Assembly: GCF_029761915.1 (NCBI RefSeq)
Contig: NZ_CP121695.1
Coordinates: 9,143,501-9,207,500, forward strand
Origin: Bradyrhizobium sp. CB1650
GTDB taxonomy: Bacteria > Pseudomonadota > Alphaproteobacteria > Rhizobiales > Xanthobacteraceae
Length of the DNA stretch: 64,000 nt
Reading direction: 5' to 3'
Shown: piece after piece, positions 44,705-52,525 of the stretch
Position numbering within the stretch: position 1 is the stretch's first letter
How the letters are laid out: each line of letters starts with the position of its first letter
Notes under the pieces: model-generated
Seen by the model: only the letters and a program-made list of their open reading frames with translations
What the model was told of the DNA's origin: nothing
Database searches by the model: none
Position numbers and translations under genes: made by a program

Positions 44705-45583
44705 ATGTCGAAGCGCGGACCCGCCACCAGCAAGAAGCTCCTCACCGGCCTGCTCGGCGCGCCGATCGCACACTCCGCCTCACCCGCCATGCATGAGCGG
44801 GCCGCCGAGGCGCTCGGGCTTCGCGGCCACTACCAGCTCATCGAGATCGCCGGCGCCGATACCGCCCAGCTCAGCACCCTGCTCGAGGGCGTGCGCCGTC
44901 TCGGCTTTGCCGGCATCAATGTCACCTATCCCTACAAGGAGGCGGTGGTCCCTCTGCTCGACGAGCTGGCACCGGGCGCCGCCGCCATGGGCGCGGTCAA
45001 CACCGTCGTCGTCAAGGACGGCCGGCTGATCGGCCACAACACGGACACCACGGGCTTTGCGCGCGCGGTAGCGCCGCTGCTGGCGCCATCCGGCAACGCG
45101 GTCGCGGTGATCGGTGCCGGCGGTGTCGGCAAGGCGATCGCTTTCGCGTTGGCGAGCCTGGAGGTGGCCGACATCCGCATTTTCGACAGCGAGCCCGCGC
45201 GCGCCGAAACGCTCGCCTCGCTGCTTGCCCCACGCGGCGGTGCCAGGGTGGCCGGAAGCGTCGAGGACGCGCTCGATGGCGCAACCGGCCTCGTCAACGG
45301 CACGCCGCTCGGCATGCTGCCGAACCGGAGCATGGCGGTCCCGGCCGCGCTGCTGCACGGGCGATTGTGGGTTGCGGATGCCGTCTATTCGCCGCTGATC
45401 ACGCCGCTGCTGGCGGCGGCCCAGGCCACCGGCGCGCGCATCATGACCGGGCGGGAGCTCGCGATCTACCAGGCCGCCGACGCCTTCGAGCTGTTCACGG
45501 GCCTTGCCCCGTCGACCGAAGTCATGGGAGAGGCCTTCGACGAGGTGATGGCGGCGCGAAGCTCGGCCTATTACGCAGCGTAA
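44705..45583 (+). CDS. Shikimate/quinate dehydrogenase (AroE family), catabolic
   Basis: A 292-residue AroE-type dehydrogenase. Motifs: SASPAMH (24-30, substrate serines), NVTYPYKE (catalytic Lys78), GAVNT (96-100), HNTD (catalytic Asp114) and the nucleotide loop 'VIGAGGVGKAIA'. First gene of an operon with a transporter and QuiC, so it probably oxidises imported shikimate (or quinate) to 3-dehydroshikimate rather than serving aromatic amino acid synthesis. The cofactor (NAD or NADP) cannot be read with certainty. Confidence 0.85.
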   Translation: MSKRGPATSKKLLTGLLGAPIAHSASPAMHERAAEALGLRGHYQLIEIAGADTAQLSTLLEGVRRLGFAGINVTYPYKEAVVPLLDELAPGAAAMGAVNTVVVKDGRLIGHNTDTTGFARAVAPLLAPSGNAVAVIGAGGVGKAIAFALASLEVADIRIFDSEPARAETLASLLAPRGGARVAGSVEDALDGATGLVNGTPLGMLPNRSMAVPAALLHGRLWVADAVYSPLITPLLAAAQATGARIMTGRELAIYQAADAFELFTGLAPSTEVMGEAFDEVMAARSSAYYAA

Positions 45584-49552: not shown

Positions 49553-50290
49553 ATGAGCGACCCGATCCTCTCGGTTCACAATCTCGTCGGCGGCTACGGC
49601 AAGATGACCATCCTGAACGGCACGACCTTCGCCGTGCCGCAGGCCACCATCACGACCATCATCGGACCGAACGGCGCCGGCAAGTCGACGGTGTTCAAGG
49701 CAATCTTCGGCCTGCTGAAGCTGCGCGAGGGCAAGATCAGCTTCGCTGGCCGCGACGTCACCAATTTGAGCCAGCGCGCGCTGCTCAATGCCGGCATCTG
49801 CTACGTGCCGCAAGGACGCAACATCTTTCCCGAGCTGTCGGTACGCCACAATATCGAGCTCGGCGGCGTAGCGGCCGAGAAGGGTATCGACCTGCCGAGG
49901 CGGATCGAGGCCGCGCTCGACCTGTTTCCGGCACTGCGGCGGAAATCGGCGCAGCAGGCCTCCACGCTGTCGGGCGGCGAGCAGAAGCAGCTCGAGATCG
50001 CGCGCTCGCTGCTGCTCGAGCCAAAGCTCGTGCTGATCGACGAACCCTCGATCGGGTTGTCTCCGCTGATGGTGCAGCAGACCTTCGACATCCTCAAATC
50101 CCTGCGCGACCGCGGCGTCACCATCCTGATGATCGAGCAGAACGCGCGCTCGGCGCTCGAAATCTCCGATTTCGGCATCGTGCTCGAGCTCGGCCAGACC
50201 CGCATGGTCGACAAGGCCGAACGCATCCTGAACGATCCCCGCATCGGCCAGCTCTTCCTCGGCGGCGTCATGGAGGAGAGCGCGGCATGA
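49553..50290 (+). CDS. ABC transporter ATP-binding protein, LivF type (shikimate operon)
   Basis: A 245-residue ATPase: Walker A GPNGAGKST, 'GICYVPQGRNIFPELSVR' Q-loop region, signature 'STLSGGEQKQLEIARSL' and Walker B 'LVLIDEPSIGLSP'. The start at 49553 follows AGGAAACGAG; the ATG at 49523 inside livG is rejected. Its stop TGA overlaps the ATG of the small remnant ORF. Confidence 0.9.
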   Translation: MSDPILSVHNLVGGYGKMTILNGTTFAVPQATITTIIGPNGAGKSTVFKAIFGLLKLREGKISFAGRDVTNLSQRALLNAGICYVPQGRNIFPELSVRHNIELGGVAAEKGIDLPRRIEAALDLFPALRRKSAQQASTLSGGEQKQLEIARSLLLEPKLVLIDEPSIGLSPLMVQQTFDILKSLRDRGVTILMIEQNARSALEISDFGIVLELGQTRMVDKAERILNDPRIGQLFLGGVMEESAA

Positions 50291-50415
50291 GCGCGCAAGT
50301 TCGCATCGCCGGCGCCGGCCTGATCGGCCGCCGCCATATTGTCGAGGCCGTCAGCGAAGCGGCCCGAAACGGACTCACCGTATCGTCGGACCGAATCATG
50401 GAGCAGGCAGCATGA
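50287..50415 (+). pseudogene. In-frame-deleted Gfo/Idh/MocA dehydrogenase remnant
   Basis: A 42-codon ORF between livF and quiC, overlapping both by ATGA. Residues 1-17 (RIAGAGLIGRRH) match the N-terminal Rossmann glycine motif of MocA-type oxidoreductases. The remainder (EAVSEAARNGLTVS) looks like the extreme C-terminus of the same family. The join lies at about His17/Ile18 with frame kept. I infer that some 300 or more codons were lost in one in-frame deletion while translational coupling to quiC survived. A functional small peptide cannot be excluded. Confidence 0.65.
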
Positions 50416-52283
50416 ACAAGCGCTCGATCGCGACCGTCTCCCTCTCCGGTGCTCTCGACGAAAAGCTCCGCGCCATCGCGGCGGCCGGCTTCGACGCGGT
50501 CGAGATTTTCGAGAACGATCTGTTGTCGTTCGGCGCAGGCCCGCGCGACATCGCAAAACTCTGCCGCGATCTCAATCTCGGGATATGTGCGTTCCAGCCG
50601 TTCCGTGATTTCGAGGGCATGCCGGAGCCGCAACGCACCCGCAATTTCGCCCGCGCCGAACGAAAGTTCGACCTGATGCAGGAGCTCGGGACCGACCTGC
50701 TGCTGATCTGCTCCAACGTCTCGCCGGCCTCGCTCGGCGGCATCGATCGCGCGGCAGACGATTTTCGCGAACTCGGCGAGCGTGCGGCCAAGCGATCCTT
50801 GCGCGTCGGTTACGAGGCGCTGGCGTGGGGACGGCATGTCAACGACTACCGCGACGCCTGGGAGATCGTGCGCCGCGCCGATCACCCCGCGATCGGCGTC
50901 ATCCTCGACAGCTTCCATGCGCTCGCGCCCGGCTTTCCGACCCGCGCGATGGCCTCGATCCCCGGCGACAAGATCTTTCTGGTGCAGCTTGCGGACGCGC
51001 CCAGGCTCGAGCTCGACATCCTGTCCTGGAGCCGGCATTTCCGCTCCTTCCCCGGCCAGGGCGATCTGCCGGTCGGCGAGTTCATGGAGGCGATCGCAGC
51101 GACCGGCTATGCCGGGCCGCTGTCGCTGGAGATCTTCAACGACCAGTTCCGCGCCGGCTCGGCCGCACAGACCGCGATCGACGGCCTGCGGTCGTTGATC
51201 CTGCTGCAGGATCAGCTAGCGGAGAAGTCGCCGAATGCTTCCGACAGGTCACTTGCACCAAGAGCCGTGAGCCGCGGCACCGGCTTCGTCGAGTTCGCGG
51301 TCAACGAGACCAAAGCCGGCGATCTCGCCCGGCTGTTCGCGCAGCTCGGCTTCCGCAAGACCGGCAAGCATCGCAGCAAGGCGGTGGAGCGCTGGACGCA
51401 GGGCAAGGTCGAGCTCGTGATCAATTGCGAGACCGACGGCTTTGCACATTCCCACTACGTCACGCACGGCCCCGGCGTCTGCGCCATCGCGCTCGACGTC
51501 GATGATGCCGGCCGCGCCATGGCGCGCGCGGAGGCACTGAAGGCGCGCACCTTCTACCAGCCGGTCGGACCGGGTGAGCTGGAGATCCCGGCGATTCACG
51601 GCGTCGGCGGCAGCCTTCTGTATTTCCTCGACCAGGCCGGCCGGAACTGGGACACGGATTTCGAGGCGGTTGCGAGCAATGCGGACAAAGACGCGCTGCT
51701 TGCCGTCGATCACATCGCGCAGTCCATGCCCTATGACGAGATGCTGTCCTGGCTGTTGTTCTACACCGGCATTCTCGACCTGACGCGGCTGCCGCAGATG
51801 GAGATCGCCGATCCCAGGGGGCTCGTGCAGAGCCAGGCCGTCATCAATGGCGACCAGAGCCTTCGCTTCGTGCTGAACGGCTCATCCGCCAACCGCACGC
51901 TGCCGGCGCGCTTCATCTCCGAGTTCTTCGGCTCGGGCGTGCAGCACGTCGCGTTCTCGTGCCGGGACATTTTTGCGACGGTCGCAGCGATGCGCGCCCG
52001 CGGCGCCGACTTCCTCGATATTCCGGACAACTACTACGACGATATCGAAGCTAAATACGACCTTGCGCCCGAAGTCATGGCGAAACTCCGCGCCAACCAC
52101 ATCCTCTACGACCGCGAGGGCGACGGCGAGTTCTTCCAGGTCTACACCCACATTTTTGATGAGCGCTTCTTCTTCGAGATCGTCGAGCGAAGGAGCTATC
52201 AGGGCTTTGGCGCGGCCAACGCCGGGATCAGGCTTGCAGCGCAAGCGCGCGAAGTGCGCCCCGCAAGCATGCCGCGGGTGTAA
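50412..52283 (+). CDS. quiC: 3-dehydroshikimate dehydratase, QuiC type (isomerase-HPPD fusion)
   Basis: A 623-residue fusion. The N-terminal half (about 1-275) is a sugar-phosphate-isomerase-like TIM barrel with metal-site segments 'GVILDSFHAL', 'KIFLVQLADAP' and 'GPLSLEIFND'. The C-terminal half (about 290-610) is a 4-hydroxyphenylpyruvate-dioxygenase-like pair of VOC folds with 'AVDHIAQSMP', 'GVQHVAFSCRDIF' and 'FFFEIVERRSYQGFGAAN'. Fusions of this build are bacterial 3-dehydroshikimate dehydratases that give protocatechuate. It completes the local route shikimate to 3-dehydroshikimate to protocatechuate. Confidence 0.87.
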   Translation: MNKRSIATVSLSGALDEKLRAIAAAGFDAVEIFENDLLSFGAGPRDIAKLCRDLNLGICAFQPFRDFEGMPEPQRTRNFARAERKFDLMQELGTDLLLICSNVSPASLGGIDRAADDFRELGERAAKRSLRVGYEALAWGRHVNDYRDAWEIVRRADHPAIGVILDSFHALAPGFPTRAMASIPGDKIFLVQLADAPRLELDILSWSRHFRSFPGQGDLPVGEFMEAIAATGYAGPLSLEIFNDQFRAGSAAQTAIDGLRSLILLQDQLAEKSPNASDRSLAPRAVSRGTGFVEFAVNETKAGDLARLFAQLGFRKTGKHRSKAVERWTQGKVELVINCETDGFAHSHYVTHGPGVCAIALDVDDAGRAMARAEALKARTFYQPVGPGELEIPAIHGVGGSLLYFLDQAGRNWDTDFEAVASNADKDALLAVDHIAQSMPYDEMLSWLLFYTGILDLTRLPQMEIADPRGLVQSQAVINGDQSLRFVLNGSSANRTLPARFISEFFGSGVQHVAFSCRDIFATVAAMRARGADFLDIPDNYYDDIEAKYDLAPEVMAKLRANHILYDREGDGEFFQVYTHIFDERFFFEIVERRSYQGFGAANAGIRLAAQAREVRPASMPRV

Positions 52284-52344
52284 CGACCTCCAGGGGGACT
52301 TCCCGTGAGTCAGATGACTGCTTTACTGAAGTCCTATCCACACC

Positions 52345-52422
52345 GTCATTGCGAGCGCAGCGAAGCAATCCAGAGTCTTTCCGCGGAGGGATTCTGGATT
52401 GCTTCGCTGCGCTCGCAATGAC
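52345..52422. repeat. 78-bp palindromic element, copy 2
   Basis: GTCATTGCGAGCGCAGCGAA to GCTTCGCTGCGCTCGCAATGAC, same length as the copies at 6889 and 59169. It lies in the 242-base gap between quiC and a convergent binding-protein gene. A partial CTCTCCC repeat with GAACGGGGAGAGGGAG follows at 52478-52522. Confidence 0.88.
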
Positions 52423-52525
52423 GTCGAGGAGAGTGTGCGCGATTACGGCGCGGGATTGCCTGTGGAAAGAGCCCCTGACCCCGACCCCTCTCCCTGTAAG
52501 AACGGGGAGAGGGAGAAGCGAGAGC

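Follow-up and report, generated by a model that had tools for sequence, protein, structure and literature searches.

A 42-codon in-frame remnant of mocA between livF and quiC, and the repeated absence of this gene from the same slot across Bradyrhizobium

The window analysed here is a whole stretch of 64,000 nucleotides from a 9.43-Mb single-contig Bradyrhizobium genome (G000). It contains a gene run in the order aroE-type dehydrogenase, livK, livH, livM, livG, livF, a short remnant open reading frame and quiC. The features on which the following account relies are these:

44705-45583, + strand: aroE-type shikimate (quinate) dehydrogenase, head of the gene run, retained in the window (NCBIfam)
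49553-50290, + strand: livF, ATP-binding subunit of a branched-chain-amino-acid-type ABC transporter (ORF; NCBIfam PRK11614 LivF)
50287-50290, + strand: ATGA overlap of the livF stop and the remnant start (sequence)
50287-50415, + strand: 42-codon remnant ORF of mocA, a Gfo/Idh/MocA oxidoreductase gene (translation; full-length counterpart in locus L004 and 63 other loci)
50412-50415, + strand: ATGA overlap of the remnant stop and the quiC start (sequence)
50412-52283, + strand: quiC-like 3-dehydroshikimate dehydratase, TIM barrel plus HPPD-like domain (NCBIfam, Pfam)

The aroE-type product scores 415.8 bits against the NCBIfam shikimate dehydrogenase model PRK00258.3-3, for which the cut-off is 252. 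The livF product reaches 192.7 bits with PRK11614, below the cut-off of 441, and is therefore assigned at family level only. The quiC product matches DhshikDhtase_QuiC of NCBIfam with an E-value of 8.6e-219 and 728.2 bits, under the curated cut-off of 1200, and carries the Pfam domains AP_endonuc_2 and Glyoxalase_5. Behind quiC, at 52340-52425 of the window, lies a palindromic intergenic repeat, TCATTGCGAGCGCAGCGAAGCAATCCAGA ... TCTGGATTGCTTCGCTGCGCTCGCAATGA. Similar copies follow quiC in L324 and occur between livF and quiC in the Bosea-type loci L214 and L216, both of which are without mocA.

The translation of 50287-50415 is MSAQVRIAGAGLIGRRHIVEAVSEAARNGLTVSSDRIMEQAA*, a peptide of 42 residues. 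The nearest relative found, genome G218 (locus L004), has a quiC 98% identical to that of the window, and in the same slot it holds a 352-residue Gfo/Idh/MocA gene, here called mocA, with the same two ATGA overlaps. Alignment of the short ORF to this gene divides it as follows:

50287-50337, + strand: 5' piece, residues 1-17, corresponding to full-gene residues 1-19 minus V9-A10 (alignment to L004)
50337-50341, + strand: junction of a 924-bp in-frame deletion (alignment by eye; exact point ambiguous by about one codon)
50338-50412, + strand: 3' piece, residues 18-42, corresponding to full-gene residues 328-352 (alignment to L004)

In total, 930 bp are missing with respect to L004, a multiple of three. 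We read them from the alignment as the 924-bp deletion plus a second one of 6 bp, also in frame, near 50310/50311, which removes V9-A10; because of this extra deletion, the automatically placed breakpoints for the window's locus (L001) are unreliable. The initial annotation had proposed that the slot between livF and quiC once held a complete Gfo/Idh/MocA gene, since deleted in frame, that the ORF joins its two termini and that the ATGA overlaps with both neighbours were kept, and the comparison of the livF-quiC interval in relatives that it recommended bears out all three points. Neither outcome that it had named beforehand as contrary to this view, a 42-codon ORF universal among relatives or homologues with mismatching ends, was encountered. 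Since a full-length gene occupies the same slot at 64 other loci, the remnant ORF is not a chance frame. On the other hand, the short direct repeat expected at the junction near 50338 did not materialise, the alignment read by eye offering only 1-2 bp of microhomology. The 42-residue peptide contains no Pfam or NCBIfam domain at an E-value of 0.001, and presumably retains only the first strand-turn and the last helix of the Gfo/Idh/MocA fold. The last 18 nucleotides of the 3' piece before quiC, presumed to be the quiC re-initiation site, are identical to those of L004, L005 and L007.

The full-length protein of L004 passes the Pfam cut-offs of PF01408 (81.6 bits, cut-off 24), PF22725 (84.0, cut-off 27) and PF02894 (63.8, cut-off 22.9). 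Full-length mocA adjoins quiC and lies behind an aroE-type gene. The earlier suggestion that the lost enzyme perhaps acted on quinate gains no support: the best NCBIfam match of the L004 protein is inositol 2-dehydrogenase (TIGR04380), and at 139.5 bits against a cut-off of 355 this lies far below the threshold. A search of 265 genomes of the genus at an E-value of 1e-150 returned 65 mocA matches in 64 genomes, all adjoining quiC. Relocation of mocA elsewhere in the empty genomes was considered and set aside, as matches at this threshold, which hides more distant copies, adjoin quiC. The window's own genome has mocA paralogues of 47% and 49% identity elsewhere, together with three weaker ones, which are too distant to be moved copies of the gene. 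In genome G060 the mocA-quiC pair occurs twice in opposite orientation, at C16:656513-658381 and 801818-803686, about 145 kb apart and with the same score and identity.

Of the 265 genomes, 254 yielded a match to quiC, the weaker matches being mostly other genes. In a first set, upstream DNA was obtained for 149 of the 150 quiC places listed (the second quiC copy of G060 being left out), and the livF-quiC interval was empty in 80, full in 59, partial in four and of another kind in six. The latter comprise a full mocA behind a broken livF (L030), a large deletion spanning livK to the mocA end (L067) and four different upstream regions. A further set of 30 loci from 29 genomes added 13 empty and four full intervals, as well as 13 loci without the livF-quiC arrangement, among them L324, which is cut by a contig end with nothing visible upstream. 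Over the 179 quiC loci of the Bradyrhizobium group, this amounts to 93 empty, 64 full, four partial and 18 different. Two of the 64 full-length genes are frameshifted (L036, L040), and the partial ones are in frame in L001, L020 and L058 and out of frame in L144. Deletions of transporter genes just upstream of quiC, in which the livK start is joined to a late livF or to the mocA end, were observed in L065 (G245) and L067 (G013). A record titled Frankia sp. RB7 (L182, JAUEPE010000032.1) displays a typical Bradyrhizobium liv-mocA-quiC run at 82-96% identity and is probably mislabelled.

The junctions of the full and empty states are exact. In every one of the 93 empty loci a single ATGA serves as livF stop and quiC start, with no scar, and both mocA ends carry ATGA in all 59 full loci tested. 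The two mocA ATGAs lie within an exact repeat of 4-13 bp, of 6 bp in 45 of those 59 loci and usually GCATGA, so that a single slip could excise mocA cleanly. The repeated, scar-free absence of mocA across the genus constitutes a larger fact than the in-frame deletion in the window, and one that the initial annotation had not claimed.

Gene order in the outgroups indicates the direction of change. The arrangement livF-mocA-quiC is found in Bosea-type loci (L210-L213, L217), in Tardiphaga (L189) and in the Bradyrhizobium outgroups L202 and L206, with ATGA at both mocA ends in the Bosea-type L211 and L217. The Bosea-type L214-L216 are without mocA. The Chelatococcus locus L219 and the Pseudolabrys loci L218 and L222 have a relative placed downstream of quiC. 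In addition, the divergence of mocA between the two Bradyrhizobium groups is in step with that of quiC (0.254 and 0.214), and the nearest neighbour agrees with that of quiC in 30 of 57 loci for mocA and in 19 of 57 for livF. From this gene order and from mocA distances that track quiC, we take the full state to be ancestral and the empty loci to be losses.

The state changes repeatedly on every tree that was built. On a quiC tree of 143 scored loci, from which the six loci of another kind in the first set were left out, 38 changes are counted, or 31-46 when only losses are allowed, depending on the branch support required. Two trees were restricted to the 109 loci of L033-L151 in which livH, livM and livG are all readable: a concatenation of livHMG, inner livF and inner quiC gives 26 changes (29-35 losses), and livHMG alone gives 28 (21-34 losses). 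These tree-based loss counts ignore recombination and are to be taken as upper readings. When the full/empty state and balanced livF SNPs are placed on one and the same tree, the state requires 0.297 changes per taxon and the SNPs on average 0.201 (20 sites, sd 0.047, maximum 0.302), though the 35 changes observed for the state fall within the range obtained with shuffled labels (mean 39.3, minimum 30 of 200). Linkage decays over about 20 bp to values close to background, and the change counts are uncertain to the extent that recombination blurs the assumed tree. Taken together, mocA has probably been lost through many separate events.

An alternative that deserves serious weight, although we do not favour it, is that the empty state has only a few origins and was passed on by homologous recombination across the livF-quiC flanks, recurrent precise deletion being rare. 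In the main group, a DN-type livF tail (mostly MEDNAA) is confined to empty loci (34 of 62, against none of 56 full ones). Moreover, in 20 hand-picked pairs of full and empty sisters, divergence is raised next to the junction on both sides: the final 60 bp of livF reach 0.142 (0.079 upstream), and the initial 60 bp of quiC reach 0.095 (0.066 deeper in the gene). In 20 pairs of like state it stays flat at 0.049-0.054. The DN-type tail and the raised junction divergence would indicate an old empty allele that spread by recombination, in which case fewer losses than the 29-35 counted, and fewer independent deletions, are needed. Against this, the remaining 28 of the 62 main-group empties do without the DN tail, and most of them have livF tails also found in full alleles; the diverged group has empties with livF tails of their own; and the state shows more homoplasy than the majority of balanced livF SNPs. 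Excess divergence on the livF side is absent from the sister pairs L068/L123 (2/57), L037/L091 (3/57) and L023/L088 (3/57), the quiC side being raised in L068/L123 (8/60). The SNPs linked to the state point both ways: they lie almost wholly in the last 60 bp of livF, as spread would have it, but the first 60 bp of quiC are at background. Neither process by itself, recombination or deletion, accounts for this one-sided linkage. It is probable that empty alleles have spread, and we read the data as the product of both processes, repeated clean deletion plus the spread of empty alleles. A more weakly folded initiation region was considered as the cause of the DN-type tail, but the mean folding energy of the quiC start region differs little between the DN-type empties (-8.6 kcal/mol), the other empties (-9.8) and the full loci (-10.2).

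A parallel to the window was found in the Bosea group, a genus of 67 genomes reached by searching 397 genomes from the order. Here quiC is present at an E-value of 1e-250 in 30 genomes, with mocA sequence at 20 loci and none at 10. None of these 10 shares an ATGA between livF and quiC, the gaps ranging from 6 to 176 nucleotides. The integrity of mocA was examined in L270, and in L269 the gene ends early in a stop. In L270 (G693, 1304-1504), the middle of mocA has been lost in frame, leaving 66 codons that run through an ATGA into quiC, and untranslated DNA separates livF from this remnant. It is an independent parallel to the remnant of the window.

The initial annotation had gone further and proposed that selection keeps the ORF as a coupling linker, its translation carrying ribosomes into quiC. 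We regard this proposal as unlikely. In its favour, the frame is kept in four of five large internal deletions (L001, L020, L058 and L270, but not L144; P=0.045 against an expectation of 1/3), the remnant of L270 also ends in ATGA on quiC, and the second, 6-bp deletion in G000 is likewise in frame, with the last 18 nucleotides before quiC unchanged. However, once the two small frameshifts are added, the frame is kept in four of seven disruptions (P=0.17), a tally that leaves out the livK-to-mocA-end deletion of L067. The 42-codon form is found at one of the 179 loci, the out-of-frame copies of L036, L040 and L144 persist upstream of quiC, and the 93 empty loci, which join livF to quiC directly, do without any linker. 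The residues also drift: three of the last 24 are absent from all 55 intact in-group genes, in which such private residues average 0.35 with a maximum of 2, and the L020 remnant has three in 22. Two of the private changes, T338N and P344S, affect near-invariant residues. Counts of nonsynonymous and synonymous codons with respect to L004 (4:4, against 112:168 in intact genes) reveal no difference (Fisher P=0.72). A leader ORF would be shared among relatives with a conserved peptide, whereas this one occurs once in 179 loci and has three private residues in 24.

Repeated gain of mocA into an empty ancestor is very improbable: the excess of empty over full loci (93 versus 64) and the Bosea-type loci without mocA (L214-L216; 10 of 30 in the genus search) would favour it, but the outgroup gene order runs against it, and so does mocA divergence, which mirrors the relationships of quiC no less closely than livF. 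Least credible of all is a functional small protein of 42 residues, which would account for the intact frame and the start overlap of its own, but whose near-invariant positions have changed as described and whose only relative among proteins of similar length sharing 5-residue words is the window's own copy.

In our preferred reading, which we hold with considerable confidence, the ORF was left behind when a recent in-frame deletion struck an ancestral mocA, a gene that would be dispensable and is repeatedly, mostly scar-free, lost, and the remnant could still feed ribosomes to quiC. According to this proposal, mocA would be an ancestral member of a livKHMGF-mocA-quiC run that became dispensable in much of Bradyrhizobium and was lost again and again, leaving no scar in most loci. 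Deletion between the ATGA-containing direct repeats, usually GCATGA, would remove the gene and let livF stop on the quiC start, and recombination with an already empty allele would be an alternative clean route. In the window's genome the event would have been a different one, an internal deletion of mocA. As the frame was kept, ribosomes starting at the remnant could run into the quiC ATGA and restart there, and the peptide itself would no longer matter. That short upstream regions may suffice for this is suggested by an excerpt of PMC10666635, in which the last 15 nucleotides of the upstream gene are enough for termination-reinitiation in two E. coli gene pairs and gaps of about 20 nucleotides nearly abolish it. 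In view of the 15-nucleotide reporter results, the remnant could carry ribosomes into quiC, and so could the empty junction. The remnant is most likely a recent decay intermediate whose ribosomes are still able to reach quiC, and a passenger that does not break the coupling is its simplest reading.

Genes within operons are usually thought to be hard to lose, owing to polar effects on the genes downstream. With more reserve, we put forward a tentative generalisation, namely that ATGA overlaps make a gene in mid-operon a cassette that can be removed without a scar, and that mocA has been excised precisely some 20-40 times in the genus, in-frame remnants being a minority. If this were true, one deletion would both remove the gene and restore the overlap, the register of the repeat keeping the neighbours coupled, and the livF tail of empty alleles might be retuned as a quiC initiation site, and this could account for tail and state being linked on one side only. 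Were stop/start overlaps to double as deletion repeats, the geometry of the overlaps would foretell the clean disappearance of particular operon genes, and the 157 full or empty loci would offer a natural experiment on overlap-guided loss. The ORF of the window looks like an intermediate of a less clean route, and the in-frame remnants of Bradyrhizobium, together with that of the Bosea group, make it possible to test to what extent gene decay is limited by coupling.

In-frame deletion pseudogenes are known, as are deletions between short direct repeats, and coupling overlaps are likewise a known kind of junction. Among the matches listed in a search of the open-licence literature, which covers the openings of abstracts, there is no report of scar-free gene loss at ATGA overlaps or of mocA at this locus. 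The termination-reinitiation described by Huber et al. (excerpts of PMC6728339 and PMC10666635) takes place at ATGA overlaps like those at both junctions of mocA, and short upstream 3' regions suffice for the coupling, as the remnant would offer. Those studies used reporters for gene pairs that occur naturally in H. volcanii and E. coli, whereas here the upstream gene is internally deleted and the likeness is one of geometry only. MIRUs, as described in an excerpt of PMC12548453, also provide a short ORF with a -4 nt overlap to the downstream gene, likely sparing its expression, as does the ORF here; they are inserted mobile repeats, while the ORF of the window is the residue of a deleted gene. 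With regard to the Gfo/Idh/MocA oxidoreductases, the full gene of L004 belongs by all three Pfam families, and the remnant matches none. Like the known in-frame deletion pseudogenes, the remnant has an internal deletion and a kept frame, and, as in the known short-repeat deletions, the scar-free loss of mocA has short repeats at its ends. What distinguishes it from ordinary repeat deletions is that the stop/start overlap serves as the repeat, so that the gene is removed entire, with no scar, and its neighbours become overlapped.
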